Assembly (NCBI RefSeq): GCF_000422785.1
Contig: NZ_AUGS01000002.1
Location: 62,001 to 126,000 of the forward strand
DNA: 64,000 bases
From: Pseudovibrio exalbescens DSM 16456
Lineage (GTDB): Bacteria > Pseudomonadota > Alphaproteobacteria > Rhizobiales > Stappiaceae
Reading direction: 5' to 3'
Shown here in pieces: positions 1 to 39,404 of this stretch; position 1 is the stretch's first letter; every line of letters begins with the position of its first letter. The notes below the pieces were generated by a model, which was not told where the DNA came from, did no database searches, and saw nothing but the letters and a program-made list of their open reading frames with translations. The position numbers and the translations under genes were made by a program.

Positions 1-2576
1 GCTGGCAAAAGAAGTGGGACGAACAGGAAGTTTTCAAGACGGACAACGATGATCCGCGGGACAAGTACTATGTCCTAGAAATGTTCCCCTACCCTTCCGG
101 TCGCATCCACATGGGGCATGTGCGCAACTATGCCATGGGCGACGTTGTTGCGCGCTTCAAACGCGCAACCGGGCACAATGTGTTGCACCCCATGGGATGG
201 GATGCATTCGGTATGCCTGCCGAAAACGCTGCCATGGAAAAGGGTGTTCATCCAAAAGGGTGGACCTACGATAACATCGCAACAATGCGCGGCCAGCTGA
301 AATCCATGGGATTATCACTGGACTGGAGCCGCGAGTTCGCAACGTGCGACGAAGACTACTACGCACAACAGCAGCGTTTGTTCATCGATTTTCTGAAAGC
401 GGGCCTGATTTATCGTAAGAATGCCAAGGTCAACTGGGATCCGGTTGATATGACCGTTTTGGCCAACGAACAGGTGATTGATGGCAAGGGCTGGCGCTCC
501 GGTGCTCCCGTTGAGCAAAAAGAACTGACACAGTGGTTCTTCAAGATCTCGGAATTCTCTGAGGATCTGCTTGAGAGTCTGGACACGCTTGATCGCTGGC
601 CGGAAAAAGTTCGGTTGATGCAGAAGAACTGGATTGGTCGCTCCGAAGGCCTGAAGGTCCTGTTTGAATTCACCGAGGCTGCGCCAACAGGCGATACCAC
701 ACTGGAAATCTTCACAACCCGGCCGGATACGCTTTACGGCGCTTCCTTCATGGGGTTGTCGCCAGATCACCCCATTACGCAGAAATTGGCAGAAAACAAT
801 GAAGATCTGCAGGCATTCATTGCTGAATGTCGCCGCATAGGCACCACCGAAGAAGCCATTGAAACCGCAGAAAAGCTGGGGTTTGATACTGGCCTGCGTG
901 TGAAGCACCCGCTTGACCCAAGCTGGGAACTCCCGGTCTACGTCGCAAACTTCATTCTCATGGATTATGGTACCGGCGCAATTTTCGCCTGTCCGGCCCA
1001 CGACCAGCGTGACCTTGATTTTGCTCGCAAGTATGGTCTGCCAGCCAAGGCGGTTGTTCTGCCGGATGGGGAAGATCCAACATCATTCGAAGTGACGGAT
1101 GAAGCCTACACAGGTGAAGGCACCATCTTCAACTCCGATTTCATGGATGGCATGTCCATCGCCGATGCAAAGGCTGCTGTATCAGACCGCTTGGAACAGC
1201 AAAAAGTTGGCGGCAAGCCTCAAGGTACTCGAGAAATCAACTACCGTTTGCGCGACTGGGGAATTTCACGGCAGCGGTATTGGGGCTGTCCGATCCCGGT
1301 GATCCATTGTGATGACTGCGGTCCCCAGCCAGCGCCGATTGAAAGCCTGCCTATCAAGCTGCCGGAAGACGTGTCTTTTGACCGCCCAGGCAACCCACTT
1401 GATCGTCACCCCACATGGCGCAACGTCAAATGCCCCTGCTGCGGCAAGGATGCAAAACGTGAAACCGATACCATGGACACCTTCGTGGATTCCTCTTGGT
1501 ATTTTGCTCGGTTCACGGACCCGAAAAACACCAATCCAACCGATCCGGCTGCTGCCAACGCATGGTTGCCCGTAGACCAGTACATTGGTGGCATTGAGCA
1601 TGCGATCTTGCACCTGCTGTACTCCCGTTTCTTCACACGGGCCATGCAGATTACGCATCATCTTGATCTTAAAGAACCCTTCAAGGGCCTGTTCACCCAG
1701 GGCATGGTGAACCATGAAACCTACAAGGCATCCTCGGACAATCGTTGGGTTTCTCCTGCAGACATCAAGATTGAAGAAGTAGATGGCGGCCGCAAAGCAA
1801 CCCTTCTTGATACTGGTGAGGATGTTATCATCGGCTCCGTCGAGAAAATGTCCAAGTCCAAGAAAAACGTTGTCGATCCAACCGACATCATCGATACATA
1901 CGGTGCCGATACAGCACGCTGGTTTGTGCTCTCCGACAGTCCGCCCGAGCGTGACATCATCTGGACCGAGGAAGGTGTGCTGGGTGCCTGGCGTCACGTT
2001 CAGCGCGTTTGGCGTGTAATCAACGAGATTGCGGAAAAGACAGACGCCGGAATTGATGAGCCGGCAAATTTTGGCGAACCCGCCCTTGCCTTGCGGCGTA
2101 TGACCCACAAGACCCTGGCTGGTGTGCGCAAGGACTTTGATAGCCTCGGTTTCAACCGCGCCGTGGCAAAGATCTACGAGTTCCTCAATGCCATCAGCAA
2201 GGCCTCGCAGGCAGACCTCTCGGGAACCGATATGGTTTTTGCGCTGCGGGAAAGCGCAGACTTCCTGCTTCACATGATGGCACCGATCACACCGCATCTT
2301 GCTGAAGAATGCTGGTCTGTTCTGGGTCATGATGAGCTGCTTTCGCAGTCGGCATGGCCAACGCTCATCGAAGACCTGCTCGTTGAAGACACCATCACCC
2401 TGCCGATTCAGATCAACGGCAAGAAAAAAGGTGACTTAACAATCGCACGAGACTCTTCCAAAGAGGACGTGGAAGCGGCTACTCTGGCACATGAGGTTGT
2501 TCAGCGGGCGCTGGAGGGCAAGGCGCCACGCAAAATCATTGTGGTACCCCAGAGGATCGTGAATGTCGTTGTTTGA
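1..2576 (+). CDS. leuS: leucyl-tRNA synthetase (5' end cut by window)
   Basis: Class I aminoacyl-tRNA synthetase that charges tRNA-Leu in the cytoplasm. The reading frame is open from base 3, and the residues before the first in-window ATG (base 81) already match the family (WQKKWDEQ near the N-terminus), so the gene begins upstream; about 857 residues are visible and only a dozen or so should be missing. The HIGH signature appears as HMGH at 108-119 and KMSKS at 1845-1859. The CP1 editing domain lies between them, with TTRPDT and, further on, a DQRD motif. The C-terminal anticodon-binding region is complete. Its end overlaps the start of lptE by 14 bases, indicating translational coupling in a leuS-lptE-holA operon, a usual alphaproteobacterial order. 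Confidence 0.97.
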
Positions 2577-3159
2577 TCGAAAGGCCAAGACCGCCTTTGC
2601 AAACCGCCGGGCAGTGCTCGGCGGTGTTGCGCTCATTGCCAGTTCTCTGGTTTTGGCAGGCTGCCAAGTTCGCCCCTTATACGGGGTCAAGACAGTGACC
2701 TTCAGCCAGGACGGTCAGGAAATCGAAACTTCGGTGCAGCAGCAACTGGCGGCAATTGATGTGACGGTTGCTGATATTGGTGGAAACGGGCTGGCGCGAG
2801 TCAATCAGTATCTGCGCAACGAGTTGCTGTTCAACCTGCGCCGCGGCGGGGATGGATTGCCTTCGCAGTACACCCTCAAGGTTCTCGTGAACAAGGTAGA
2901 AAGCGAAGTTGGTGTTGAAGAACTGGCAGATGTGCCGTCTGCATATAACCTGACACTGAATGCCAGTTTTGTGCTATCTGAAGCGGTATCGGACAAAACC
3001 CTCTACACGGGTCGATCCTTTGCGTCTGCCTCCTATGACTTTTCCAGTCAGCGATTTGCCAACCTGCGCGCAGAACGCAATGCCGAAGACCGTGCCGCCA
3101 AAGTCGTTGCAGCCGACATTCAAGCCCGACTGGCGGGTTACTTCGCCGGCAAAATTTAA
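2563..3159 (+). CDS. lptE: LPS-assembly lipoprotein LptE-like
   Basis: Predicted outer-membrane lipoprotein that partners LptD in inserting lipopolysaccharide into the outer membrane. The 198-residue protein has a basic N-terminus, a hydrophobic stretch and a lipobox LAGC with the lipidated Cys at about residue 34, followed by the short VRPLYG motif typical of alphaproteobacterial LptE. The remainder is compatible with the alpha/beta LptE fold, which is poorly conserved in sequence. The start codon lies inside the end of leuS and the stop is 15 bases before holA. Assignment rests on the lipobox, size and the conserved leuS-lptE-holA context rather than on strong sequence motifs. Confidence 0.85.
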
Positions 3160-3174
3160 CGAAGTGGACGGGCA

Positions 3175-4209
3175 ATGGTTGCGCTGAAGGCACAAGAAGT
3201 CGATCGGTTTGTAGCCAAACCACCTGAATCCGTGTCTCTGGTCCTTGTTTACGGGCCAGACACCGGACTTGTGTCTGAACGCGCAGCGACTTTGATCAAG
3301 CACGCTGGCGGAGACGACCCTGACCCGTTTTCTCAAATCAAACTGGACGGCAGTGACATCAGTTCGGATCCAAATCGACTGGTGGATGAAGCACTAACCA
3401 TCTCGATGTTTGGCGGGCGGCGAACCATCTGGGTCAAGGACGGTAGCAGCAAGAATATCGTTCCGGCCGTCGAAACGCTTTTAAGGAATCCGGACCAACC
3501 TTCTTTTGTGGTGATTGAAGCTGGGGACCTTAAAAAGACGGCGCCGCTGCGCAAAAAGATTGAAGGTGACAAACTCGCCGTTGCCCTACCCTGTTTCCCG
3601 GACACTGCCAAAGACGTTGACAGGCTCATAGACGAGGAAACAAAGGCAGCTGGTCTGATGATTAGTCGTGAGGCCCGAATGGCTCTCCATGCTCTTCTGG
3701 GAGCCGATAGACGGGCAAGCCGAGGTGAACTTCAGAAGTTATGCCTATATGCCATGGAAGACCAACGTATCGAAAGCCACCATGTTGAGGAAATCATTGG
3801 TGATGCTTCCGCGTTTGCCATGGACGAACTGATTGATGCCGCCGCCTTGGGCCAATTGAAAACACTGGACCAGGGCCTGGAGCGTTTTGAAGCCGGAGGA
3901 ATGGATGCCGGCGTAATTGCCAGTCAGGCGCTCAGACACTTCCAACAACTGCACTTTTGCAAACTGGAGACGCAAAAGCGGCGGAGCGCTGATGATGTAG
4001 TCGGCAGCCTTCGACCACCGGTTTTTTGGAAGCGGAAATCGAAAATGGTTCGGCAAGTCGAGATATGGCCGGTTGAACAGCTTGAGCGAGCTCTCATTCG
4101 ACTGAATGAGACAGTTAAAACAGCCCGGCTCAATGCAGTTCTCGGGCCTTCAATCCTCTCGCACGCGCTTTTGATGATCGGGCAATATGCCAGTCGTCTG
4201 AACCGGTAA
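3175..4209 (+). CDS. holA: DNA polymerase III delta subunit
   Basis: Delta subunit of the clamp-loader complex, which opens the beta sliding clamp and loads it on primed DNA. The 344-residue protein has the delta pattern: an early VLVYGPDTG segment in the degenerate nucleotide-binding fold, a central region and an alpha-helical C-terminal collar domain. Length is normal for the family. It follows lptE by 15 bases in the same orientation and faces parB across a 212-base convergent gap. No distinct T-rich terminator was seen on its own strand after the stop. Confidence 0.93.
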   Translation: MVALKAQEVDRFVAKPPESVSLVLVYGPDTGLVSERAATLIKHAGGDDPDPFSQIKLDGSDISSDPNRLVDEALTISMFGGRRTIWVKDGSSKNIVPAVETLLRNPDQPSFVVIEAGDLKKTAPLRKKIEGDKLAVALPCFPDTAKDVDRLIDEETKAAGLMISREARMALHALLGADRRASRGELQKLCLYAMEDQRIESHHVEEIIGDASAFAMDELIDAAALGQLKTLDQGLERFEAGGMDAGVIASQALRHFQQLHFCKLETQKRRSADDVVGSLRPPVFWKRKSKMVRQVEIWPVEQLERALIRLNETVKTARLNAVLGPSILSHALLMIGQYASRLNR

Positions 4210-4421: not shown

Positions 4422-5318
4422 TCAGTTCTGAATGCCCAGCAACCGGCAGACTTCATCCAGCTGCTCCAGTGAGGCATACTTGATCTTGAGCTCACCCACC
4501 CCTTTATCCGCCTTGTGAGCGATAGCAACCTTTAATCCCAACCCGTCCGTCAAACGTTTTTCCAGCGCTTTGGTATCGGCATCTTTTTCCGGTTTGGGCG
4601 CACGTGCCTTCTTCTCCAAAAGAGATGGATCTTGGGCCAGCCTTTCCGCATCACGCACTGTCAAACCGCGCTCAACAATCAAATCAGCCAGCGCCGCAGG
4701 ATCTTCAGCTGTAATAAGAGCGCGCGCATGGCCGGCTGTCAGCAAGCCCTCCGCCAGATAATCTTTGACAGAGTTTGGCAGCTTCAAGAGACGAAGTGTG
4801 TTGGCCACATGGCTACGGCTTTTGCCGATCACCTTGGACAGTTCCACCTGACTATAGGAAAAGTCCTCGATCAACTGATCATAACCCAACGCCTCTTCAA
4901 TCGGGTTCAAATCCGCCCGCTGGACGTTCTCAATGATTGCCAGCTCGAGGGCTTCTTGATCCGTGACATCGCGAATGACGACAGGAGCGTCATGCAACCC
5001 CACCCGTTGGGCTGCACGCCAACGACGCTCACCGGCAATAATCTCGTAGTGACCCGGTGCATTAGGCTGCGGACGAACAAGAATGGGTTGAACTATACCC
5101 TTTTCGCGAATGGATTCCGAAAGGCTCGTCAGATCCTCTTCAACAAATGCTTTCCGAGGGTTGCGTGGATTGGGACGCATGTTCTCAATAGGAACTTTGC
5201 GCACATCCCTTGGACGCTCCGAGGTGTGCGATGATTCAACATTTACATCTCCAATCAAAGCCGCAAGCCCACGTCCCAAACGCTTGTTGCTTCGACCGCC
5301 TTCCTCAGATTTCGTCAT
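4422..5318 (-). CDS. parB: chromosome-partitioning protein ParB
   Basis: CTP-dependent DNA clamp that loads at parS sites, spreads along DNA and with ParA segregates the replication-origin region. The start is set at 5318 because AGGTG lies a few bases upstream and the protein then begins MTKSEEGG, giving 298 residues; the frame stays open to 5411 but the added residues do not resemble ParB. Visible features: an N-terminal RLGRGLAALIG segment (13-23), the CTP-binding GERRWRA motif at 96-102, a central helix-turn-helix that reads parS, and a C-terminal dimerisation region. It follows parA by 141 bases. Candidate parS targets lie at 6884, 9073, 10302, 11821, 12616 and 13286. Confidence 0.97.
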   Translation of the reverse strand: MTKSEEGGRSNKRLGRGLAALIGDVNVESSHTSERPRDVRKVPIENMRPNPRNPRKAFVEEDLTSLSESIREKGIVQPILVRPQPNAPGHYEIIAGERRWRAAQRVGLHDAPVVIRDVTDQEALELAIIENVQRADLNPIEEALGYDQLIEDFSYSQVELSKVIGKSRSHVANTLRLLKLPNSVKDYLAEGLLTAGHARALITAEDPAALADLIVERGLTVRDAERLAQDPSLLEKKARAPKPEKDADTKALEKRLTDGLGLKVAIAHKADKGVGELKIKYASLEQLDEVCRLLGIQN

Positions 5319-5459
5319 TTTGTTCACCTGATCGACATCATTAAGGGCGAAGCGCCGCGCAAACGCCCCTTGATAGTGCGTCCACCTACCCGATACCAGT
5401 GTGGCCGCCATTCATTATTCGAAATACGCCTCTGCGACGCTACTCAACTACCCATCGCA

Positions 5460-6287
5460 TCAGGCCGCAGCCATTCGCATATCGCGTTCACGCTGAATGA
5501 TTTCAGACGCCAGCCGCAAGTACGCCTGTGAGCCCGAACACTTCAGATCATAAAGCAACGCTGGCTTTCCGTAAGACGGCGCCTCTGAAACCCGCACATT
5601 TCGCGGAATTACAGTTTCATAAACAGCGTCGCCCATTGTTTCCCGGACATCCTGAACCACCTGGCTCGACAGATTGTTACGGCTGTCATACATCGTCAAC
5701 ACAATACCGTGGATGCTCAGTTCGCTGTTCAAGGTGTGTTTGACCTGCTCAACTGTACTCAAAAGCTGGCTCAACCCTTCAAGCGCAAAAAACTCACACT
5801 GCAATGGCACCAAGATCGAGTGGGATGCGCTCAAAGCATTGATGGTGAGCAGGTTCAAGGACGGCGGACAATCAACCAAAATATAGGAAAAGCCTTGTGC
5901 CCGTCCCTGCTCAGCTGCTTTGGCCAAATTCACGATTGCATTACGGAGCCGAAACGCTCGATCAGATGCACTCGATATTTCCAGCTCAACGCCCAGCAAA
6001 TCCATAGTGGACGGAGCGATCCAGAGTCGAGGTACAGCGGTCTCTTGAAGTGCCTGCTGCAACGAGCAATCGCCACACAGAACATCATAGGTTGAATACT
6101 CGCGCGCCTGCCGATCAATGCCCAAACCCGTTGAGGCGTTTCCCTGCGGATCCAGATCGATAACAAGAACACGCTCCCCGATCGCAGCAAGAGCGGTACC
6201 AAGGTTGATCGCGGTCGTCGTTTTACCAACGCCGCCTTTCTGGTTCGCAAGCGTCAAGACTCGCGGAGATTGTGGCAATAAGTTCAT
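5460..6287 (-). CDS. parA: chromosome-partitioning ATPase ParA (Soj family)
   Basis: Walker-type ATPase that binds DNA non-specifically and pulls ParB-parS complexes apart during chromosome segregation. The 275-residue protein carries the deviant Walker A motif KGGVGKTT at residues 17-24 with the signature lysine, the Walker A' DLDPQGN motif, and the Walker B segment ILVDCPP. Its ATG overlaps the rsmG stop by four bases (ATGA), so rsmG, parA and parB are probably co-transcribed. Location a few kilobases from the putative origin is as in most bacteria. Confidence 0.97.
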   Translation of the reverse strand: MNLLPQSPRVLTLANQKGGVGKTTTAINLGTALAAIGERVLVIDLDPQGNASTGLGIDRQAREYSTYDVLCGDCSLQQALQETAVPRLWIAPSTMDLLGVELEISSASDRAFRLRNAIVNLAKAAEQGRAQGFSYILVDCPPSLNLLTINALSASHSILVPLQCEFFALEGLSQLLSTVEQVKHTLNSELSIHGIVLTMYDSRNNLSSQVVQDVRETMGDAVYETVIPRNVRVSEAPSYGKPALLYDLKCSGSQAYLRLASEIIQRERDMRMAAA

Positions 6288-6928
6288 GAAACAGGTCCCC
6301 GTCCAGCTGTCGCAGGTTCCATACCCCGAATGACAAGAACGCGACTTAGCGGATCTACTCGACTTTTATGTTCTACCAGATCTAGGGACCACTCGTGAGA
6401 CGCTTCTTCAATCTCCCTCTGAAAATCTTGCCCTTTGTGGAAAACAGCGGTAGCACCCTGTTGAATCAAACGGGCAGAAAACCCGCATAAAACCGCCAAA
6501 GAGGCCAAAGCTCGAGCGGAAATCGCATCAATCGGCTGGGTCCAGTTCTCAGTCACACTCTCGATTCTGCCAGCATGAACCTGAACCTTACAGCCAGTTT
6601 CACGTGCAACAGTGCGAAGAAAAGCCGCCTTGCGTTGATTACTCTCCACCAGATGCACCAGTGCCTCAGGCTCATCAGCCAGCAAAATAGCAGTGACAAG
6701 GCCAGGAAACCCCGCTCCGCTTCCAAAATCGATCCAGTTGCGAGCGTCCGGGATTGTTTTTTGAATCTGAATAGAATCGGCTACATGGCGTATCCAAATA
6801 TCCGGTAGCGTTTTGGGAGCAATCAAGTTCTGCGCCGGTTGCCATTTGCGTACCAAATCCACATAAAGCGCCAACCGATTAAATGTTTCATGTGAAACAT
6901 CCGGGTACATTTTCTGCACCACGGCCAT
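6284..6928 (-). CDS. rsmG: 16S rRNA (guanine-N7)-methyltransferase RsmG (GidB)
   Basis: SAM-dependent methyltransferase that modifies G527 of 16S rRNA. The 214-residue form starts at the ATG at 6928. A GTG at 6958, two bases after the mnmG stop, is an alternative and would add ten residues. Recognised by the glycine-rich SAM site DFGSGAGFPGL and the N-terminal V-S-x-E-T motif (here VSHET, residues 11-15), followed by LVRKWQPAQNLIAP. The bases coding VSHET are a near-perfect parS site. It sits in the canonical mnmE-mnmG-rsmG-parA-parB series and overlaps parA by four bases. Confidence 0.95.
   Translation of the reverse strand: MAVVQKMYPDVSHETFNRLALYVDLVRKWQPAQNLIAPKTLPDIWIRHVADSIQIQKTIPDARNWIDFGSGAGFPGLVTAILLADEPEALVHLVESNQRKAAFLRTVARETGCKVQVHAGRIESVTENWTQPIDAISARALASLAVLCGFSARLIQQGATAVFHKGQDFQREIEEASHEWSLDLVEHKSRVDPLSRVLVIRGMEPATAGRGPVS
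6884..6899. other. parS site 1 (inside rsmG)
   Basis: TGTTTCATGTGAAACA, 15 of 16 bases identical to the bacterial parS consensus TGTTTCACGTGAAACA. The only change is C to T at position 8. It lies in the rsmG coding sequence and spells Val-Ser-His-Glu-Thr. It is the site closest to parAB. Confidence 0.85.
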
Positions 6929-6959
6929 TTGTTCCGTATCTTGTTTTGTTACCACAACA

Positions 6960-8840
6960 TTACCCAGTCTGCGCCACACGCAAGCCGTTCCGGCGCACAT
7001 GCCCCAATAGTAAAGTAAGTGCAGCGGGCGTCACGCCATCGACCCGCGAAGCCTGACCAATGGTCGTTGGCCGCACTGACTCCAACTTTTGTCTAACTTC
7101 ATTAGAAAGCCCCGAAAGCGCACCGTAATCAAGATCCGCAGGAATGCTCAGCGCTTCATCCTTCTTCAAAGCCTCAATATCCGCAGATTGGCGCTCCAAA
7201 TAAACCGCGTACATGGCATCAATGGCCACTTGCTCAGCTATCTTCCTATCTAATTGATTTATCTCGGAAAATACAATTTCCAGTTTGTCCAGATCGATAT
7301 CGGGATAAGCAAGAAGATCAAATGCGGAACGCTTTACACCATCCTGATTGATGGGAAGTCCCTTCTTTCGACCTTCATTAGGCGAAATGATCAAGCTCTT
7401 CATCAACGCAGTCGCATCATCCAATGACCTGCGCTTTTGTTGGAAGGCGGCCCAACGCGCATCCCCCACGCATCCCCATGCAAGCCCCAACGGCGTCAAC
7501 CGCTGGTCAGCATTGTCCGCACGCAAGGACAAACGATATTCTGCCCGTGAGGTAAACATACGATAAGGCTCAGTAACTCCGCGGGTTACAAGATCGTCGA
7601 CCATTACGCCAATATATGCGTCTGCGCGGCCAATAACGACGGGCTCGTCGCCTTTCGCCAAACGCGCCGCATTCAATCCGGCCAAAAGCCCTTGTGCGCC
7701 GGCTTCTTCATAGCCTGTAGTGCCGTTGATCTGACCAGCAAGGAACAACCCTTTCTGCTTCTTCACCTCCAGGGTCGGACGCAACTCGGTTGGGTCGATA
7801 TGGTCGTACTCAATGGCATAACCGGGTTTGATCACCTCGACCTTTTCAAGGCCCGGAATGGTCTTCAAAAACGCAAGTTGCGCATCCACTGGAAGAGAAG
7901 TGGAAATGCCATTCGGATAAACCGTGTGATCATCAAGACCTTCAGGCTCCAGGAACACCTGGTGGCCATCCCGGTCGCCGAACCGTACCACCTTGTCTTC
8001 AATCGAAGGACAGTAGCGTGGTCCCCTTCCCTTGATCTCACCAGAATACATAGCGGAGCGATCCAAATTTTCGCGAATGATCTGATGAGTTTCCTGAGTG
8101 GTCCGGGTGATGTAGCAGGAAACCTGCGGCACTGTAATCTTGTCCGTCAGCGTAGAGAAAGGCTCAGGAGCCTCATCACCCGGCTGCTCGACCAACTGGT
8201 CCCAATCTATGGTGCGACCGTCGAGACGGGCCGGCGTACCTGTTTTTAAGCGCCCCAACCGCAAACCGATTTCTTCAAGACTAGCGGACAAGCCCATAGC
8301 AGGTTTCTCGCCGTCTCTTCCAGCAGGCGTTTTATCCAAACCGATATGGATCATGCCGCGCAGAAAGGTTCCCGTCGTCAAAACTACGGCTTCAGCTTTC
8401 AACTCCGTTCCATCGGCAAGCGCAATGCCCTTGAGCTGATTTCCTTCGCGAAGAAGCTTATCTGCTTCACTTTCAACCACCACGAGATTAGCTATGCTCG
8501 AAATCTCGCGCTGCATGGCCTTACGATAAAGTTTGCGATCTGCCTGCGCTCGCGGTCCCTGCACTGCGGGCCCCTTTCGGCGATTGAGCATGCGAAACTG
8601 AATACCTGCAGCGTCCGCGACGCGGCCCATCAAGCCGTCCAGGGCATCAATTTCACGGACCAGATGCCCCTTCCCTAACCCACCGATGGCCGGGTTACAC
8701 GACATCACGCCAATCGTATCAAAACGATGCGTCACCAGCGCGGTATGCGCTCCGGCGCGGGCAGCCGCGGCCGCAGCTTCGCAGCCAGCGTGGCCACCGC
8801 CAATGACAATAACGTCAAAGCGCTTGCTCAATGTGGTCAC
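6960..8840 (-). CDS. mnmG: tRNA uridine-5-carboxymethylaminomethyl modification enzyme MnmG (GidA)
   Basis: FAD-dependent partner of MnmE that installs the carboxymethylaminomethyl group on wobble uridine 34 of several tRNAs. The 626-residue length is normal. The N-terminal Rossmann motif is [12 protein letters not shown]; the GIQFRMLN and [14 protein letters not shown] segments, the catalytic-cysteine regions and [10 protein letters not shown] are all present. The stop is next to the start of rsmG and the two are likely co-transcribed. A 255-base gap with a parS site separates it from mnmE, which encodes its functional partner. Confidence 0.98.
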
Positions 8841-9072
8841 TTGTCTCTTCCTAAATCAGTCTGGTGCGGCTCTTGTTTTCAGCGCTCTTGGATGGGCTGT
8901 TTGGCCAGCAACACATGCTTCGGTCTAGCAGTTCAGTTGGGTTTTAATACATGAGCCACCGGACAACGTCAAAGCCTTGATAAGCATGATTCGATCGCAA
9001 ATGACATGCGATTATCAGGACAAGCTTCTCCCCTTAATTATCCCCGCAAAACGACTCATCTTGACATCTGAT

Positions 9073-9088
9073 AGTTTCACGTGAAACA
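9073..9088. other. parS site 2 (mnmG-mnmE intergenic)
   Basis: AGTTTCACGTGAAACA matches the parS consensus at 15 of 16 bases, with the full CACGTG core and both GTTT/AAAC arms intact. Only the outermost base differs. It is the one strong parS site lying wholly outside coding sequence, eight bases past the mnmE stop codon. Confidence 0.92.
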
Positions 9089-9095
9089 GGCTCGC

Positions 9096-10457
9096 TCATT
9101 TACCTATGCAAAAGTCCCTAAAAATGACGTCCAGAAGATCCTCTACATCGATACGTCCGGTGATACGCCCAAGCTGTTCTGCGGCCATACGAAGCTCTTC
9201 GCTTCGCAGTTCCAAAGGTAGATGCGCTCCAGCAATGGCGCGATCCAATGCCTCAACGCACGAGCTTAAATGAGAGCGGTAGCGCTCCCGAGTGATCAGA
9301 GGGTTTTCGAAATTGCCGATATTCTCTTCTGCAAAGGCGGTGAGCTTCTCTATTAGCGCATCCATACCATCTTCATTGTGAGTACTAGAGTAAACAAAAG
9401 GTAAACCCTCAACCTCAACGCGTGCCACCTCTGCCGCTAGATCCGCCTTCGTCTTCACAATCCAGACCTCTGCCGAGCCGTCCCTCAGATGCTCCGGTAA
9501 GGGTTCTGAGATGCCATCAAGGCCTTGCGTCCATAAGATAAGGTCCGCATTTTCGGCTGAAGCCAGAGCCCGTTTGATCCCTTCCCGCTCCACAAGACCG
9601 GCATTTTCTCTCAGTCCGGCGGTATCTATCAGGGTCACAGGATAGCCGCTCAGATCCAGATGTACTTCCAACACGTCGCGGGTGGTGCCAGCTTCCGGGG
9701 TCACAATCGCCACATCTCTTCGCGCCAGCTTGTTCATCAGACTGGACTTACCCGCATTGGGCGGACCCAGCAGAACCACCACAAGACCGCTGCGCAAGCG
9801 TTCACCTCGCCGGGCATCACTCAGGTGCGCCTCTATATCAGCTTTCAAGGTGCTGAGCTTGCTCCACACCTCATCAGAAACAGAGTCCGGCACATCCTCT
9901 TCATCAGCAAAATCCAGCTCCGCCTCGATAAAGGCGCGGCTTCGGATCAAGCTCTCGCGCCATCCGTTGTAAAGCTCACCCAGCGCTCCGGACATTTGTC
10001 GCTGAGCCTGGCGCCGCTGCGCCTCTGTTTCCGCGTCTATGAGGTCCGCAAGCCCTTCCACCTCTGTAAGATCCAGCTTGTTATTATGAAAGGCGCGGCG
10101 GGTGTATTCCCCCTGCTCTGCCGGACGAAGGCCCTCCATCCTTGACAGAACCCGTAGTACGGCAGAGACCACAGCCCGACCACCGTGGCAATGAAGCTCA
10201 ACAGTGTCCTCACCGGTAAAGCTGTTTGGGCCTTCAAACCACAGCACCAAGGCCTCATCTAGAACGCTTCCATCCACAGGGTGATAAAGTTTCCGAAGTG
10301 ATGATTCACGTGAAACAGGAAATTTACCTTTTATCAGGAGACGCAACGCATCCCGGCTTTGTGGTCCTGAAAGACGAATGACAGCAACGCCGGATGGCAA
10401 AGCCCCACTGGACAAAGCGAAAATCGTATCTCTGCGGCCAGCACTCAAATTATTCAT
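9096..10457 (-). CDS. mnmE: tRNA modification GTPase MnmE (TrmE)
   Basis: Dimeric GTPase that works with MnmG in modifying wobble uridine. The ATG at 10457 is preceded by the strong ribosome-binding site GGAAGAAG, giving 453 residues; a TTG five codons upstream is less likely. The N-terminal tetrahydrofolate-binding domain begins TIFALSSG. The G domain shows GPPNAGKSS (P-loop, near residue 225), the TTRD switch and DTAGLR. The extreme C-terminus CIGK provides the Cys conserved at this position in MnmE. Codons 48-52 (VSRES) contain a parS site. It is divergent from the yyaL-like gene, 98 bases apart. Confidence 0.97.
10302..10317. other. parS site 3 (inside mnmE)
   Basis: TGATTCACGTGAAACA matches the parS consensus at 15 of 16 bases. 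On the mnmE coding strand it encodes Val-Ser-Arg-Glu-Ser. Confidence 0.88.
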
Positions 10458-10555
10458 ATTATCTTCTTCCAAAACCTTGTTCTCGCCCGGACTGTCATTA
10501 CCCTAGAACTAGGAACTTCAATTGCCATCTACCAGTGTCAGGACAGGCTTTCGCT

Positions 10556-12553
10556 ATGCCAGAGAACCGCTTAAAAAACGCTTCAAGCCCCTACCTTCTT
10601 CAACATAAAAATAACCCAGTGCACTGGTGGGAATGGGGTCCTGAGGCAATGGCAAAAGCCAAGCGGACGGGCAAGCCCATTCTACTTTCTGTCGGCTACT
10701 CTGCCTGTCATTGGTGCCATGTCATGGCCCATGAAAGCTTTGAGGACGACGAGACCGCAGAGCTGATGAACGATCTTTATATCAACATCAAGGTTGATCG
10801 GGAAGAACGCCCCGACGTTGATCTGGTTTACATGCGCGCCCTTCATGCCTTGGGCGAACAAGGCGGCTGGCCTTTGACCATGTTCCTCACATCAGAGGCA
10901 GAACCCGTTTGGGGCGGCACCTACTTTCCAAAGGAAGCGCGCTACGGACGCCCCTCGTTCAAGCAAGTATTGAACGCCGTGGCCAACACTTTCGCCAATG
11001 ATCAGGACACCGTAGAGACCAATCGGCAATCCCTTTTGATGGTGCTGAACGAGCGCCCCAAGCAACCCTCCGCGGTTGATCAGGGGCTAGTGAGCGCAGC
11101 CGGAGAGCGTCTTTCCTCAATGATAGACCGCGAGCTTGGCGGCATGCGTGGGGCGCCGAAGTTCCCTCAAGCCTCTGTCATGGAGCTCATTCTGAGAACC
11201 GGCTATCGCGAGCACAACAAAGACCTCATTGATCTTCATGCCGAAAGCCTGCGCATGATGAGCCAGGGCGGCATCTACGACCATGTGGGCGGCGGCCTTG
11301 CCCGCTATTCGGTCGATGAGAACTGGCTCGTCCCCCACTTTGAAAAGATGCTCTACGACAACGCCCAGTACATTGATCATCTTTGCTGGGCCTATTGCCA
11401 CACACAGGATCCGCTCTTCATTCGCCGCCTTTCTGAAACGGTCGACTGGATCGAGCGTGAGATGGTGCTGCCGGAAGGCGGTGTCTCAGCTGCGCTTGAT
11501 GCAGACAGCGAAGGGGTTGAGGGCAAGTTCTATGTCTGGACCGATGAGGAACTCTCCAACCTTCTCCCAGAGAACAGCATCGAGCTGTTCCGCGCTGTCT
11601 ATGATGTTCAGCCACAAGGCAACTGGGAAGGCACGACCATTTTGAACCGATCACGCCCCCTGCCCCGCCCGTTGACGGAGGAAGAGGAAGGTCAGCTCTC
11701 AGCCTGTCTTGCTCTGCTGCTAGAGGAGCGTGCAAAACGGATCCGTCCCCATAGAGATGACAAGGTGCTTCTCGACTGGAATGCCATGCTGATCTCAGCC
11801 CTAGCACATGGTTACCAAATTGTTTCACGTGAATCGTTGAAGAGCCAATTGAGGACTTTAGCTCACAGAATTTTCGAGTTTATCGAAACGCACATGAGAG
11901 AGACTGATGGCTCCATGATCCACTCCATTCGCGAAGGAGTGAAGGGCCCAGCCGCCTTTGCGGGAGACTATGCCCACCTCGCCCGTGCAGCCCTTGCTCT
12001 GGCTCGGATAGAGGATGACCCGGAAAAGAAAAGCGCCCTGATTGGCAAAGCAAAGGCACTTCTCGATCAATTGGATGCACGCTATGCCCACCCTCAAGGC
12101 GGCTACTATATGACCTCAGAGAGCTCTGATGATCTTCTCGTGCGGCCCTATCATGCGATGGATGAAGCCATCCCGAACTATAACGCGGTCGCCGCTAACG
12201 CGCTGGTCGAATACTGGATGCTGACTGATGATGCGGCCTATCGCGAGCGCGCAGACAAGCTGATCGCCAGCTTCACCGGGGAGATCAGAGCCAACATCTT
12301 CGGAACCGCCGCCCTGCTCAATGCCCTCGACACCCGCACACGGTTCAAAAAGGCAGAGATCACCCTCTCTCCTGATAGAGAGACTAACCAAGTTTCCGCT
12401 GCTTGGAAAAGTGGTGATCCCGCGTGGTTCGCCACTGTCACGACGAAAGCCGATGCAGCTGCATCAGAGGTTTTGATTTGTTCTGAAAACGGTTGCAGTG
12501 TCCCTCTTTTCACAGCTGAGGCCATTGAAGAAGAGATGCAGCGCATCTCCTGA
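10556..12553 (+). CDS. thioredoxin-domain protein, DUF255/YyaL (spermatogenesis-associated protein 20) family
   Basis: 665-residue protein of the YyaL family: an N-terminal thioredoxin-like DUF255 domain followed by a long alpha/alpha-barrel region resembling N-acylglucosamine 2-epimerases or six-hairpin glycosidases. The start at 10556 gives [17 protein letters not shown], the usual family beginning; the frame is open upstream but overlaps mnmE. The domain includes NPVHWW and the redox-like CHWC motif (SACHWCHVM) near residue 50, then GGWP and the [11 protein letters not shown] motif. The cellular substrate of the family is not established. A divergent copy of parS lies at codons 423-427. 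It converges with a GNAT gene. Confidence 0.9.
11821..11836. other. parS-like site 4 (inside the yyaL-like gene)
   Basis: TGTTTCACGTGAATCG matches the parS consensus at 14 of 16 bases. Eleven of the first twelve and the whole CACGTG core are preserved, with changes only in the right arm. The coding reading is Val-Ser-Arg-Glu-Ser, the same as in mnmE. Confidence 0.7.
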
Positions 12554-12615
12554 ATGGTCCCGAAAAACAAAGAGCAGAGGCATAAAAAGCCCCTGCTCCC
12601 CTCTCCACATTTTGA

Positions 12616-12631
12616 GGATTCACGTGAAACA
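12616..12631. other. parS-like site 5 (intergenic)
   Basis: GGATTCACGTGAAACA matches the consensus at 14 of 16 bases with an intact right arm and core. It lies in the 93-base convergent gap between the yyaL-like gene and the GNAT gene. Confidence 0.72.
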
Positions 12632-15288: not shown

Positions 15289-16320
15289 TCAAATACGGCC
15301 TTGAACTCGCTTCACCATGTGAGCGACGTGATCCGGGTTGGTTTGCGGCACTACGCCATGACCCAGATTGAAAATGTGTGGCCCGGTTTTAAAGAGGTCG
15401 AGAACATGGTCAATGCCTTCATCCAATGCCGTTCCACCTGCAACGAGACGCATCGGATCCAGATTGCCTTGAACAGGCAACTTCTTTTGCAAAGACTGTG
15501 CAACATCGGCCGGGACGCTCCAATCAAGCCCAACTGCATCAACACCAGTTTCATCCACGAAACGATGCAAGCGAGCTGCGGATGCCTTGGGGAAACCGAT
15601 GATTTTTGCGGAGGGGCGCGCAGCCTTGACTTTGGCTACCAAGGCCTTGGTCGGCGCTATTGACCAGCGTTCAAAACCCAAGTCATCCAATACCCCCGCC
15701 CATGTGTCGAAAACCTGCAATGCATCGGCACCAGCATCGATCTGAGCAATGAGATAGGTCGCAGACGCCTCGATCAGGTGGTCGATGAAAGCCTGTAGCA
15801 GCTCTGGATCCGTGTAAGAGCCGATGCGAGCAGCTGTTTGATCCGGGGTGGTGTGACCGGCGACAGAATAGCATGCAACGGTCCAGGGAGCGCCACAGAA
15901 GCCCAGAAGGGTTGTTTCCGTAGGCAGCTCAACACGCAGCCGTGAAACGGTCTCTATGACCGGCTCAAGGTGCTTCATTGTTCGATCCTGATCCAGCTTG
16001 CCGATCAATTCACGGGAAAGCGGTTCAAGAACCGGACCACGTCCTTCTTCAAAGCGAACTGGATAGCCTAAGCCATCCGGCACAACGAAGATGTCGGAAA
16101 ACAGAATGGCTGCATCAAAGCCAAAGCGGCGGATCGGTTGAAGTGTGACCTCTGTGGCGAGATCCGGATTGTAGCAAAAATCAAGGAAATTTGGAGCTTT
16201 GGCCCGCTCTGCTTTGTATTCGGGAAGATATCTTCCGGCCTGTCTCATCATCCAGACGGGCGGTTGCGCGAATTTTTCGCCGTTTAGAACGCGCATTAGC
16301 TTTCGGTCGTGAGAGTTCAT
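15289..16320 (-). CDS. hemE: uroporphyrinogen decarboxylase
   Basis: Decarboxylates uroporphyrinogen III to coproporphyrinogen III in haem synthesis. The start at 16320 gives 343 residues beginning MNSHDRKLMRVLNGE; upstream codons are open but not conserved. Signature motifs: PPVWMMRQAGRYLPEY (N-terminal family signature), the DAAILFSDIFVVPDGLG segment with the catalytic Asp, and GFCGAPWT. Forms a short operon with hemJ. Its 5' side faces the presumed replication origin, the classical origin neighbour in Caulobacter and Sinorhizobium. Confidence 0.97.
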   Translation of the reverse strand: MNSHDRKLMRVLNGEKFAQPPVWMMRQAGRYLPEYKAERAKAPNFLDFCYNPDLATEVTLQPIRRFGFDAAILFSDIFVVPDGLGYPVRFEEGRGPVLEPLSRELIGKLDQDRTMKHLEPVIETVSRLRVELPTETTLLGFCGAPWTVACYSVAGHTTPDQTAARIGSYTDPELLQAFIDHLIEASATYLIAQIDAGADALQVFDTWAGVLDDLGFERWSIAPTKALVAKVKAARPSAKIIGFPKASAARLHRFVDETGVDAVGLDWSVPADVAQSLQKKLPVQGNLDPMRLVAGGTALDEGIDHVLDLFKTGPHIFNLGHGVVPQTNPDHVAHMVKRVQGRI

Positions 16321-16390
16321 GGCCTGCCCTTTTATCCCTGATCTGACTCTAACAATCCTCATTTATGAGGATGCTGTTTTTTCTATTAGG

Positions 16391-16430
16391 GAGTGAATTA
16401 CAAGGATCAAATGGCATCCACAATTCACTC
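16391..16430. repeat. inverted repeat inside putative oriC
   Basis: GAGTGAATT at 16391-16399 and its exact reverse complement at 16422-16430, separated by 22 bases that contain the best DnaA-box-like sequence of the region. It could be a protein-binding site or cruciform. The function is not known. Confidence 0.6.
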
Positions 16431-16456
16431 AGTGTTTGACAATCGCAGCATAAACT

Positions 16457-16473
16457 CACGGGCAGATCCCGTG
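16457..16473. repeat. small hairpin inside putative oriC
   Basis: CACGGG at 16457-16462 pairs with CCCGTG at 16468-16473 over a 5-base loop, followed by an A-run on the plus strand. It is short and may be part of the hemE leader or of the origin. Confidence 0.35.
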
Positions 16474-16748
16474 GAAAAAACTGTCATGGAGTCAATAAAG
16501 GCAAAAATCACTCAGATTCAATAGGTTGCCTGATTGCTCCATCTGAATAACTCGGGAATTATTTTTTTCGTATCCTGTGAAAACGTTTATAGGCTTTTGT
16601 GCAATCCAAAAGTGCACGACCATTTCGCAAAAGGTTTGCAGCGAATTTTCATCTGTTGATCGAAATCGCTTTGCGGGTATGACTTTTATGCCGACTCAGC
16701 AAATGGCCGAGTTATCCTTGAGTCAGCCACGGCCATGGGGATTATAAT

Positions 16749-17594
16749 ATGGGAAACCAGTCTAACGTGTTCCATTTACACATGATTTCGGATTCAACAG
16801 GTGAAACTTTGATGACTGTTGTCCGCGCCGTTACCGCCCAATTCGAAAATATCCATCCAATCGAACATGTTTATCCGCTCATTCGGCAGGAGCGACAGCT
16901 TGATCGGGTCATATCGGAGATTGAGGCTGCGCCCGGCATCGTGCTTTACACACTGGTAGAGCCTGAATTCGCCCAGCACCTTGAACGGGCTTGCCAGCGA
17001 ATAGGAACGCCGTGTGTCAATGTCATGCAACCGGTCCATAATGTCTTCAGTTCGTTTCTGAATGTGGATATGGCTCCGCGGGTGGGCGGGCAGCATGCGT
17101 TGGATGATGAGTATTTTGAGCGCATGGAAGCGCTGAATTACACCATGCTGCACGATGATGGTCAGATTACCGAGGATCTCGAGTTGGCGGACGTTGTGTT
17201 GGTGGGAGTGAGCCGCACATCCAAAACACCGACCTGCATCTATTTGGCAAATCGGGGTATCAAGGCTGCCAATATTCCTCTCGTTCCCGAAATAAAGCCG
17301 CCCCGACAGCTCATGAAGCTTAAAAAACCGTTGGTTGTCGGGCTGACTGCAAGTGCTGAACGCATTCGTGATATTCGCCAAAATCGTGTGTTGTCCACAA
17401 TTCCTTCAACGGATAGTGACAGCTATATCGACAGGAAGCTCATATCCCAGGAAATCCTTCGTGCTCGCAAACTATGCAAAGAGCAAGGCTGGCCCCTTAT
17501 CGATGTAACGCGACGCTCCATTGAAGAAACAGCAGCCGAGATCATGGCGTATCTACGCGCACACAAGGCCGATCATCGACATACCCCTCAGTGA
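16749..17594 (+). CDS. ppsR: pyruvate,phosphate dikinase / PEP synthase regulatory protein (DUF299)
   Basis: Bifunctional serine/threonine kinase and pyrophosphorylase that switches pyruvate,phosphate dikinase or PEP synthase off and on by ADP-dependent phosphorylation. The 281-residue length is typical. The protein begins with FHLHMISDSTGET, the conserved family opening, and has the P-loop-like motif GVSRTSKTP at residues 153-161. The ATG is preceded by GGGGA. This is the gene on the other side of the origin from hemE in Caulobacter and Sinorhizobium, often annotated only as a hypothetical protein. Maf, aroE, coaE and dnaQ follow. Confidence 0.95.
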   Translation: MGNQSNVFHLHMISDSTGETLMTVVRAVTAQFENIHPIEHVYPLIRQERQLDRVISEIEAAPGIVLYTLVEPEFAQHLERACQRIGTPCVNVMQPVHNVFSSFLNVDMAPRVGGQHALDDEYFERMEALNYTMLHDDGQITEDLELADVVLVGVSRTSKTPTCIYLANRGIKAANIPLVPEIKPPRQLMKLKKPLVVGLTASAERIRDIRQNRVLSTIPSTDSDSYIDRKLISQEILRARKLCKEQGWPLIDVTRRSIEETAAEIMAYLRAHKADHRHTPQ

Positions 17595-20438: not shown

Positions 20439-21425
20439 TCACAGCATGGATGGCAACACGCGGTCCGGTGGGCGATGCCCATCCATGAAGGCCTTGATGT
20501 TGATGATAACCTTTTCGCCCATATCGATACGTCCCTCGATCGTCGCGGATCCCATATGAGGCAAAAGCACTACCTTTTCGCATTTGGTAAAGCGTGGATT
20601 CACGGCAGGCTCATGCTCGAAAACATCAAGTCCCGCCCCAGCTAGTTCGCCGGCTTCTATCTGGCGGATCAACGCATTTTCATCCACCACCTCGCCGCGT
20701 GCCGTGTTGACGATGTAGGCGTCAGGCTTCATCAGCTTCAAGCGGCGGGCAGACAGTAGATGGTAGGTTGCCGGTGTGTGGGGGCAGTGAATGGAAACCA
20801 CGTCCATCCGCGCCAACATTTGGTCGAGACTCTCCCAATAGGTCGCTTCCAGCTTTTCCTCGACGTCCAGAGGTTCACGAATGCGGTTGTGATAGTGAAT
20901 GGACATACCAAAGGCTTTGGCGCGCCGGGCAACGGCCTGACCGATGCGGCCCATGCCGATGATACCAAGCCTCTTGCCCCAGATACGGTGGCCCAGCATC
21001 CATGTTGGGGACCAGCCAGACCATTCGTTGTTTTCGATCTTCTTGATCCCTTCCATCAACCGGCGTGGCACCGCCAGGATCAGCGCCATGGTCATGTCAG
21101 CCGTGTCTTCGGTCATCACACCGGTCGTATTGGTAACAGCGATGCCGCGATTATTTGCCGTCACAACATCGATGTTGTCGACACCATTACCAAAGTTGGC
21201 AATCATTTTCAGGTCGGGACCGGATTGAGCCAGTACTGAGGCATCGATGCGATCGGTTACAGTTGGGACAAGCACATCCGCCGTCTTAACAGCCTCAACA
21301 AGCTCTGCCTGGCTAAAGGGTCGGTCCGTTTCATTCAGCCGCGTATCAAACAGCTCGCGCATGCGCGTCTCAACAACATCAGGAAGCTTACGCGTAACCA
21401 CCACAACGGGCTTCTTTTTGGGCAT
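20439..21425 (-). CDS. D-isomer-specific 2-hydroxyacid dehydrogenase (glyoxylate/hydroxypyruvate reductase-like)
   Basis: NAD(P)-dependent oxidoreductase acting on 2-oxo/2-hydroxy acids. 328 residues. Nucleotide-binding GMGRIG at 157-162, and the catalytic triad of the family is in place: Arg243 (TARGEVVDE), Glu272 (EHEP) and His290 (LLPHMGSAT). Resembles the glyoxylate reductases of rhizobia, but glyoxylate versus other substrates cannot be decided by eye. Divergent from the SH3-domain gene across a 244-base gap. Interrupts the expected dnaQ-secB neighbourhood. Confidence 0.88.
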   Translation of the reverse strand: MPKKKPVVVVTRKLPDVVETRMRELFDTRLNETDRPFSQAELVEAVKTADVLVPTVTDRIDASVLAQSGPDLKMIANFGNGVDNIDVVTANNRGIAVTNTTGVMTEDTADMTMALILAVPRRLMEGIKKIENNEWSGWSPTWMLGHRIWGKRLGIIGMGRIGQAVARRAKAFGMSIHYHNRIREPLDVEEKLEATYWESLDQMLARMDVVSIHCPHTPATYHLLSARRLKLMKPDAYIVNTARGEVVDENALIRQIEAGELAGAGLDVFEHEPAVNPRFTKCEKVVLLPHMGSATIEGRIDMGEKVIINIKAFMDGHRPPDRVLPSML

Positions 21426-36100: not shown

Positions 36101-36882
36101 GCAGCGGGCGTCTCCGTGAATTCGTAGGCGGCCATACTGAGCGTTCGATGGGTGTAGCTGGAATGCATCCGTCGACCTTGTGCTCTGGGTCCTGCCGCCC
36201 CCAACGCGACACACAATGGCAGAAAGTGTTCATCAGTGGGCAGTGCTCTTTGATAAAGTGGCGAGCTCACTAGATTGGCAATGGCGTTGATATCGCCCCG
36301 CTTGATGACATCATGGACAAGCTCGTCAAAAGCAACAGCCCAGGCCGGCGGTGGTTCATCGTGAGGTCCAAGCTCTTGAAAGTTATGGATGGTTGAGCCT
36401 GTTCCGAGCACTTGAATGCCCTCGTCTGCTAGCGGGGCCAAAGCGCGACCCAGTTCAATGCTTTCCAGAATATCATATTGTTTCGGAAGCGAAACTTGAA
36501 CGATCGGGTGTTCGCCTGCTGGATCTGCAAGAAGAAGAGGAATCCACGCACCATGATCCAATCCCCAATTTGGATCGGTTTGGGCAGCAAAACCGGCTTG
36601 GCACAAAGCGCGAAGCACCTGATCCACCAGGCTCGGCGTGGCTATTGCCGGGTACGAGAGCTCATAGAGCTCTTGTGGGAACCCGTTGAAATCATGGATT
36701 GTTTTTAGAGGTCCTGGTGCGGAAACACAGAGCGAACGGGTTCGCCAATGCGGTGAGATCACCACAAACGCCTTGGTGTTTTGAAGACGGGGCCCGAGTT
36801 GGCGCAAGAACGATTGTGCGGGACTTGGCGTCAGATATAGATCGGGCGCTCCATGGGGCAGGAACAAAGGTGAATGTTTCAT
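36097..36882 (-). CDS. extradiol dioxygenase of the LigB/4,5-DOPA type (YgiD-like)
   Basis: Class III ring-opening dioxygenase fold, 261 residues. Putative metal ligands His10 (LPHGAPDL), His45 (ISPHWR) and His110 ([10 protein letters not shown]), with a further conserved His166 (STIHN), the YgiD pattern. The physiological substrate of YgiD-type enzymes is uncertain. The start codon ATG AAA lies inside a parS-like palindrome, so any ParB binding would cover the translation-start region. Convergent with mutS. Confidence 0.85.
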
Positions 36883-36890
36883 GTGAAACC
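36875..36890. other. parS-like site 7 (over the ygiD-like start codon)
   Basis: TGTTTCATGTGAAACC matches the parS consensus at 14 of 16 bases and shares the CATGTG core with the site in rsmG. It is about 20 kb right of the putative origin. The palindrome includes the start codon of the minus-strand dioxygenase gene. Confidence 0.55.
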
Positions 36891-37081
36891 ATATCGTCGC
36901 GCATATCGTGTTCTGAGTGGTTCTGAGCCTATATTGTTTATTTCTAGGAATTAATCCTCGATTCATTGAATATACTGTTCACAAAAACGGCCCACTCTCT
37001 TCTCAGTACCACGCATCGGGACAGACTTTAAAAAGTAACAGGGCTCTGCTAGACCTGTCTTGAATAACGCACAGGCTCATC

Positions 37082-37531
37082 ATGACACCTTCTTTAAAAA
37101 TCAAACGCTTGGAACACGCTCAGGATCTACCTTTGCCGGCCTATGAATCCGTACAGGCTGCCGGATTGGATTTGCGGGCAGCGGTTCACGACACCATTTC
37201 TTTGAAACCGGGCGAGCGGGCCATGGTGGAAACCGGCCTTTCAATGGCCATTCCCAGTGGTTTTGAGGGGCAAGTGCGCCCGCGTTCCGGGTTGGCTGCC
37301 AAGCATGGTGTGACAGTACTGAACACGCCCGGTACGATCGATGCCGATTATCGGGGTGAGGTTAAGGTTATTCTGATCAATCTGGGATCGGAGATGTTTT
37401 TGATTGAGCGCGGCATGCGCATCGCTCAATTGATTGTAGCCCCCGTTACGCAGGCGCACATTCTCGAAGTGAACCAACTTGATGAGACAGAGCGCGGCGA
37501 CGGCGGCTTCGGGTCTTCTGGTACACATTAG
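37082..37531 (+). CDS. dut: deoxyuridine 5'-triphosphate nucleotidohydrolase
   Basis: Trimeric dUTPase that keeps uracil out of DNA. 149 residues with all five motifs: [35 protein letters not shown] (catalytic Asp), [10 protein letters not shown] and the C-terminal [10 protein letters not shown] arm. It is 200 bases from the dioxygenase start. The HAD-type phosphatase gene follows by 11 bases. Confidence 0.97.
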
Positions 37532-37542
37532 GGGCGCAGTTG

Positions 37543-38208
37543 ATGACACCCAAGCTCATCATTTTTGATTGTGATGGCATTCTGGTTGATACCGAAAAGG
37601 CCGCGAACGAGGTGCTTTCCGGGTTCGTCTCCCGGGCAGGTGGTAACATCAGCCCGGATCAATGCCACTTGCGATTTACCGGCCGCACTCTGGACACCAT
37701 TAAAACACTTCTGGAAACTGAAGAAGGGTTGATATTAGAGCCAGACTGGGCAGATCAGGTACGGGCTGCAGATTTGGTGGCGTTTGAAAAGGGGGTTGAT
37801 GCCATTCCGGGTATCGAGGCCGTTGTTCAAGCCGTTCGCGCCAACGGCATCTCCTATTGCGTCGGCTCTTCTGGCAAGTATGAGAAGATGCATGCCACTC
37901 TGGGCAGCGCAGGCTTGCTGCCCTTGTTCAAGGATGTTTTGTTTTCGGCCCAAGATGTGCCGAATGGCAAACCGGCACCCGACATTTTTCTTTATGCGGC
38001 TAAAGGGATGGGTGTGGATCCTCAACACTGTATTGTTATCGAGGACAGCCTCCCCGGACTTCAGGCCGCCCGCGATGCCGGAATGCGCGCTTTCGGTTTT
38101 ACCGCCGACCCCTTGGCGGATGAAGCAAAAGTCCGCGCACTGGGGGCTACGCCCTTCAAGGCAATGGCTGATTTGCCGGCCTTGCTTGGTCTTGAAACGC
38201 CAGCGTGA
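37543..38208 (+). CDS. HAD-superfamily phosphatase (subfamily IA)
   Basis: 221-residue haloacid-dehalogenase-like hydrolase. The nucleophile/acid pair is Asp9 and Asp11 in FDCDGILVDTE; the second motif is S in VGSSGKYEK, and the third motif is KPAPDIF with VIEDSLPGL. The cap is of the beta-phosphoglucomutase/YieH type. AGGGG lies upstream of the ATG; a TTG one codon before is possible. The substrate cannot be named. Read with dut. Confidence 0.88.
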   Translation: MTPKLIIFDCDGILVDTEKAANEVLSGFVSRAGGNISPDQCHLRFTGRTLDTIKTLLETEEGLILEPDWADQVRAADLVAFEKGVDAIPGIEAVVQAVRANGISYCVGSSGKYEKMHATLGSAGLLPLFKDVLFSAQDVPNGKPAPDIFLYAAKGMGVDPQHCIVIEDSLPGLQAARDAGMRAFGFTADPLADEAKVRALGATPFKAMADLPALLGLETPA

Positions 38209-38412
38209 TGGCATTTTGCAAGATCATTCTAACAAGGCGGCTTATTGGAACTATTTTCTAAAAGTGGTGATATTTTTAATTCTCTTTTCCCTCTCTCTCC
38301 GCTTCCGCGAGCCCTGAAAACCTCGTAACGGCCCTGCGAACTCACTACATTGTAGCTCAAGGACTTGCCACGGTGCGTCTTCACTTGCACCACTTAATCA
38401 GCGGAGTTTGTC

Positions 38413-39375
38413 ATGAGCCATACAAAAGTTGGACGCGGGAAAATCTATTCCTCGATAACCGAAACCATTGGAAACACACCGCTGGTTCGGTTGGACCGCA
38501 TCGCCGAGAAATACGGTGTCAAAGCCAACATTCTAGCCAAGCTTGAATTTTTCAATCCGATCTCCAGTGTCAAGGATCGTATTGGCGTTGCGATGATTGA
38601 AGCAATGGAAGCTGCCGGACAGATCAAACCCGGCGAAACCACGCTGATTGAGCCTACCTCGGGAAATACAGGTATCGCGTTGGCATTCGTTGCGGCTGCG
38701 AAAGGATATAAGCTGATCTTGGTGATGCCGGAAACGATGTCCGTTGAGCGCCGCAAGATGCTCAAGTTCATGGGCGCGGAACTCGAGCTGACTGAGGGCC
38801 CAAAAGGGATGAAGGGCGCCATTGCCCGCGCCAATGAACTCCTCGAGGAGATTCCTGGGGCGGTGATACCGCAGCAGTTCGAAAATCCGGCGAATCCCGA
38901 AATACATCGCAACACAACGGCCCTAGAAATCTGGAACGATACCGAAGGTAATGTCGACGTGTTCGTCTCGGGCATTGGCACGGGCGGAACCATCACAGGC
39001 GTGTCTCAGGTCTTGAAAGAAAAGAACCCCTCCGTACACGTGGTCGCGGTTGAGCCAGAAGACAGCCCGGTCCTCTCCGGTGGAGAGCCTGGGCCCCATA
39101 AGATCCAAGGGATCGGCGCCGGCTTTGTGCCACAGGTTCTGGATACGGAAGTGTTTGATGAAGTGCTGAAGATCAGCAATGACGACGCTTTCGCGCGTGC
39201 ACGAGAGGTGGCAAAGCTTGAAGGGGTGCCTGTCGGGATCTCATCCGGCGCCGCGCTGACAGCAGCCATTCAGGTTGGCCAGCGGGAAGATATGGCGGGC
39301 AAGAATATCGTCGTCATTATTCCAAGCTTTGCGGAACGCTACCTGTCCACGGCTTTGTTTGAAGGACTTGAATAG
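38413..39375 (+). CDS. cysK: cysteine synthase (O-acetylserine sulfhydrylase)
   Basis: PLP-dependent enzyme that makes cysteine from O-acetylserine and sulfide. 320 residues; Lys54 in PISSVKDR is the Schiff-base residue, and the asparagine loop TSGNTG and phosphate-binding GTGGTITG are present. GGAG lies just upstream. Ends in a strong bidirectional terminator facing polA. The 204-base upstream gap holds its promoter; no leader element was recognised. Confidence 0.97.
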
Positions 39376-39388
39376 ACCCCGATCCGAA

Positions 39389-39404
39389 TGATTCACGTGA
39401 AAAA
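39389..39404. other. parS-like site 8 (at the cysK-polA junction)
   Basis: TGATTCACGTGAAAAA keeps the CACGTG core and most of both arms, 14 of 16 to consensus. Its last five bases are part of the cysK-polA terminator stem, so a match by chance through the A-run is possible. Confidence 0.45.

Follow-up and report, generated by a model that had tools for sequence, protein, structure and literature searches.

In this Pseudovibrio genome, the interval between the divergent genes hemE and ppsR very probably serves as the chromosomal origin of replication (oriC). An earlier note had put forward the same gap as an origin, and this proposal draws support from the gene context, the clustering of parS-like sites, a change in GC skew, a high AT content and the retention of the same interval in other families. 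The origin itself is of a known kind, predictable by gene order, and more weight attaches to a comparative result: a CtrA motif that is fixed in the origins of six other genera of the family is missing in the seventh, Pseudovibrio, which offers a testable comparison of origin control. We lean slightly towards the reading that direct CtrA control is an old family trait exerted at one fixed origin site, and that it was lost once on the Pseudovibrio stem, with CtrA itself being kept and the DnaA boxes drifting. If such a single loss of the CtrA site did take place, the sister genera would represent a natural experiment on the role of CtrA at the origin.

The window, that is, the whole 64,000-bp stretch analysed, corresponds to bases 62001-126000 of contig C2 (518,740 bases) in a draft genome of 4.16 Mb and 36 contigs (G000), and its features are collected in Table 1. 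When the PpsR protein was used as a query, the named relatives recovered were Pseudovibrio exalbescens (91% identity) and P. flavus (68%), and the genus is taken as Pseudovibrio or the equivalent GTDB genus. The hemE start was placed at codon 15 of the 357-aa longest ORF, which sets the left edge of the gap; several relatives align only from about residue 15. All the genes named in the earlier note were recovered, namely ParB, ParA, rsmG, mnmG, mnmE, rho, hemJ and hemE to the left, and ppsR, maf, aroE, coaE and a dnaQ-like exonuclease to the right. The strand flip that it described at the gap is real but not clean, since ORFs run against the trend on both sides, three of them rightward at 81-4209 and one leftward at 20439-21425. 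Additionally, a DsbH/thioredoxin-like ORF of 719 aa (10394-12553, +) was observed to break up the otherwise leftward left block.

Table 1. Features of the putative origin and its surroundings in the window (strand as + or -; a dot where none applies).
Feature	Position	Strand	Remarks
parB	4422-5411	-
parA	5460-6287	-
Six parS-like sites	6596..12631	.	starts 6596, 6884, 9073, 10302, 11821, 12616
hemE, left flank of the gap	15289..16320	-	TIGR01464
Putative oriC, divergent hemE-ppsR gap	16321..16748	.	428 bp, 58% AT
GANTC (CcrM-type) sites	16345, 16489, 16515, 16693, 16720	.	two within 16489..16519
Terminator-like hairpin and T run, directed from hemE into the gap	16355..16372	+
Conserved left block CTATTAGGGAGTGAATTACAAGGATCA...ATCCACAAT	16383..16424	.	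alignment; contains GCATCCACA
DnaA-box-like GCATCCACA	16414-16422		two mismatches from TTATCCACA
Weak DnaA-box-like word TTTTCCACG	16470..16478	-	two mismatches
IHF-like site ATTCAATAGGTTG	16516..16528	+	one mismatch from WATCAANNNNTTR; alignment
Slot aligned with TTAA-N7-TTAA (CtrA motif) of other genera	16535..16553	.	motif missing here
AT-rich stretch and T run, candidate unwinding element	16541..16600	.
Conserved TGTTGAT...CGGGTATGA, putative ppsR promoter-like element	16654..16682	+	alignment
ppsR (COG1806), right flank of the gap	16749..17594	+	NF003742
Two more parS-like sites	36875..39404	.	starts 36875, 39389

Each of the 50 loci examined in the order, that of the window among them, has hemE and ppsR adjacent and divergent (30 + 20 loci; ppsR was matched in 58 of the order's 61 genomes and in three it was not). 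Class-wide, the same arrangement was seen in 39 of 40 loci, one taken per family among the 100 genomes, of 143, in which ppsR was matched (43 had no match). The sole miss, L179, has no hemE in its locus, and L001 and L002 were excluded from the counts as duplicates of L004 and L017. Within the window's family (36 genomes) the gap spans 421-444 bp, and across the class sample 306-1590 bp, measured in each case to the codon aligned with codon 15 of the window's hemE because the aligned codon is no start codon in some relatives. A divergent hemE/ppsR gap, an AT content above that of the genome and parAB with parS nearby, as looked for in an origin of the hemE-COG1806 type, are all found here.

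As the earlier note had claimed, ParAB and a parS cluster lie near the gap: parA and parB stand to its left, and the eight parS-like sites of the window (up to three mismatches) compare with 0.27 expected. When the whole 4.16-Mb genome was searched with up to two mismatches, eight sites were found, all at 68.6-101.4 kb of C2, within 33 kb around the gap. In each of eight genomes, at least two parS-like sites were located no farther than about 12 kb from ppsR, and G010 and G005 carry additional matches farther from this gene. Regarding composition, the mean AT content over 400 kb of the contig is 45%, and only 0.17% of 428-bp windows reach that of the gap; the five GANTC sites compare with a mean of 0.57 per window, a count reached by 0.07% of windows in the 400 kb. 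Windows of 40 bp attain up to 70% AT in the candidate unwinding element and likewise at 16361-16400. The hairpin near the hemE side folds stably in some relatives and weakly in several others. The exact IHF site WATCAANNNNTTR does not occur in the window's gap, where a one-mismatch site with a conserved core is present, and a consensus promoter scan detected no promoter, including at the promoter-like element.

The DnaA boxes of the gap are weak. None lies within one mismatch of TTATCCACA; with two mismatches allowed there are four, where shuffles predict 1.4, and one of the four falls on the ribosome-binding region of ppsR; 7.7% of AT-matched windows carry as many box-like words. The sequence does contain the two weak boxes picked out by eye in the earlier note, GCATCCACA at 16414 and TTATCC at 16712, of which the latter is, as a 9-mer, three mismatches from TTATCCACA and outside the four counted. 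Among the 16 gaps of the genus, the TTTTCCACG form is confined to the window and L004. A box within one mismatch was found in 13 of the 20 gaps of the six other family genera, against one of the 16 Pseudovibrio gaps. Canonical boxes were rejected as proof of an origin, given that the exact TTATCCACA occurs four times in the genome and never in the gap. In all 11 genomes searched (G000, G005, G010, G011, G017, G019, G025, G026, G034, G036 and G055), moreover, the perfect box is outnumbered by its reversed control, and therefore the lack of a perfect box in the gap carries little weight. An altered DnaA specificity in the genus was also considered and set aside, since the C-terminal motif around RDHTTVLHAVRK, which we take to be the box-reading signature, is identical in seven genomes of the family; in G055, which belongs to another family, one change was seen beside it.

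The comparison of CtrA motifs separates Pseudovibrio from its relatives. Of 20 genomes belonging to the six other genera, 18 have an exact TTAA-N7-TTAA mid-gap (gap positions 182-222) and the remaining two a copy there with at most one mismatch; counted anywhere in the gap, the exact motif is present in 19 of 20, one genome having it at gap position 323. No exact motif occurs in the 16 Pseudovibrio gaps, one of which contains a one-mismatch site away from the mid-gap position; in the window's gap no copy lies within two mismatches and the best has three, so that the TTAA-N7-TTAA expected of a CtrA-controlled origin of the Cori type is missing from it. When spacings from 0 to 20 were compared, N7 was found in 19 of 20 gaps of the six genera against 0-7 of 20 for any other spacing, in 6 of 14 gaps from 14 other families of the order against at most two, and in 7 of 39 class-wide gaps against 0-3. 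Genome-wide, N7 and N6 occur 23 and 13 times in the window's own genome, 33 and 23 in G010, 29 and 28 in G005, and 21-31 and 4-10 in five sister genomes; in samples of 400 kb, N7 stands out in the contig of the window (6 copies, against no more than 2 for any other spacing) and not in that of G010 (3, against up to 5). In a midpoint-rooted FastTree phylogeny of HemE and PpsR, the 16 Pseudovibrio form one clade (support 1.00) inside the family, and since motif-bearing genera stand on both sides of it, the pattern is most simply read as one loss on the stem, although related genomes are non-independent and the motif counts overstate the number of events. It is plausible, on motif distribution, that the Pseudovibrio lineage lost direct control of its origin by CtrA. 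Loss of CtrA itself was rejected as an explanation, as the window's own genome, the one considered for this point, encodes CtrA (L166), recognised by its N-terminal sequence. A CtrA motif was additionally found about 50 bases upstream of a regulator gene, which we take to be FtcR/Rem. Among the literature matches listed, no paper was found that deals with CtrA sites at origins in this family.

GC skew agrees with an origin at the gap in part. Local fits placed a change in slope near the gap in four of five genomes: at 76 kb of C2 in the window's genome, with the gap at 78.5 kb (90% bootstrap 71-80 kb, in a gap-centred range), at 4727 kb in G010 (gap at 4729.9 kb), at 106 kb in G025 (106.6 kb) and at 2809 kb in G019 (2814.2 kb; p=0.013); no slope change was detected in G055 (p=0.61). 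The ranges were picked around ppsR, which biases them towards mid-range breaks, and in G010 and G019 the skew merely weakens at the gap and keeps its sign. The earlier note had named a skew minimum elsewhere as evidence against the gap, and here the outcome was divided, the gap-centred range placing the change approximately at the gap but the fits over 220 or 400 kb picking 95 kb, 16 kb to its right. The cumulative skew of C2 has two minima, at 77.7 kb and, slightly deeper, at 94.9 kb (about 16 kb and 33 kb in the window), and that of trained 7-mers reaches its minimum at 110 kb. The polarity of GGGNAGGG was rejected as an origin marker and counts as evidence against the gap, since it shows no clean flip there: in C2 (bases 1-400000), forward and reverse copies number 1 and 15 to the left and 22 and 13 to the right (p=0.00017), with a mixed 7 and 12 from 78 to 230 kb, the first 150 kb right of the gap, and in G010 (C1:4610001-4830000) the polarity is unchanged, with 1 and 18 to the left and 2 and 16 to the right. 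In G010, GGGNAGGG was seen to retain its left-arm polarity for 100 kb beyond the gap on the right-hand side, without following the change in GC skew.

An alternative account places the origin elsewhere nearby, either beside dnaA, 84 kb right of the gap, or near the second skew minimum, some 16 kb to the right, and makes the gap no more than a conserved double promoter. The break at 95 kb and the change of GGGNAGGG polarity 100-150 kb right of the gap fit this account, which we nevertheless regard as improbable: the distance from dnaA to ppsR varies greatly, from 73 to 729 kb across eight genomes (two of these distances assuming a circular contig), whereas the parS-like sites keep to about 12 kb or less from ppsR; the length of the gap is near constant in the family; and in G025 the skew changes less than 1 kb from the gap, at a point off mid-range, with dnaA about 207 kb away. 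More improbable still is that the gap serves simply as a divergent promoter region of the usual sort, bearing its motifs by chance. The weak DnaA boxes and the promoter-like conserved block could be read in this way, as could the fact that 6-8% of AT-matched windows equal the gap in GANTC or box-like words (6% of 285 such windows for GANTC); however, chance would hardly keep the interval across families, with parS sites and a skew change around it, or account for the specificity of the N7 spacing in the gaps of relatives.

Taking the gap as the origin, and starting from what was directly observed, i.e., gene order, parS clustering, the skew change, AT and GANTC enrichment and the presence or absence of motifs, a course of binding, unwinding, methylation and regulation can be proposed. 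DnaA would assemble on the few degenerate boxes of the gap, aided by bending at the IHF-like site, and the AT-rich stretch would open, while ParB on the nearby parS cluster, together with ParA, would segregate the new origins. The GANTC sites may carry a replication-dependent methylation mark. Phosphorylated CtrA would, in the six other genera, additionally bind at mid-gap and restrain replication, in the manner of the Caulobacter Cori; in Pseudovibrio, where the motif is gone, any CtrA control of initiation would be indirect, as reported for Sinorhizobium meliloti. The CtrA, DnaA and IHF sites are all predicted, and the presence of a motif should not be equated with its occupancy.

One close comparison is with the six other genera of the family, whose gaps have the same flanks and near-equal length and share the left block and the CA core of the IHF-like site, but differ in their mid-gap CtrA motif and closer DnaA boxes. 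The chromosomal origin of S. meliloti reportedly adjoins hemE as well, a location attributed to work by Sibley in 2006. By description, this origin resembles that of the window in being without a CtrA motif and unbound by CtrA (PMC4433202). The hemE-COG1806 interval is the proven origin of Caulobacter and is common to Rickettsia (PMC1914354). The Cori of Caulobacter crescentus shares with the gap its flanks, weak and degenerate DnaA boxes, AT-richness and an IHF-like site (PMC1914354 and PMC4468827), but has five CtrA sites where the window's gap has none within two mismatches. The origins predicted in Wolbachia and other Rickettsiales are similar in their hemE flank and AT-rich gap of about 400 bp, although Wolbachia, Ehrlichia and Anaplasma have COG1253 where the window has ppsR; in PMC1914354, CtrA motifs are predicted in the origins of Wolbachia and relatives, and few or none in some predicted origins of Rickettsiales. 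Elsewhere in the class, CtrA was reported to be unbound at the origin in Brucella (PMC2877005) and to bind beside the origin in Hyphomonas neptunium (PMC7200025). Judged by its motifs, the origin of the window is of the CtrA-free kind, within a family that otherwise bears the motif.
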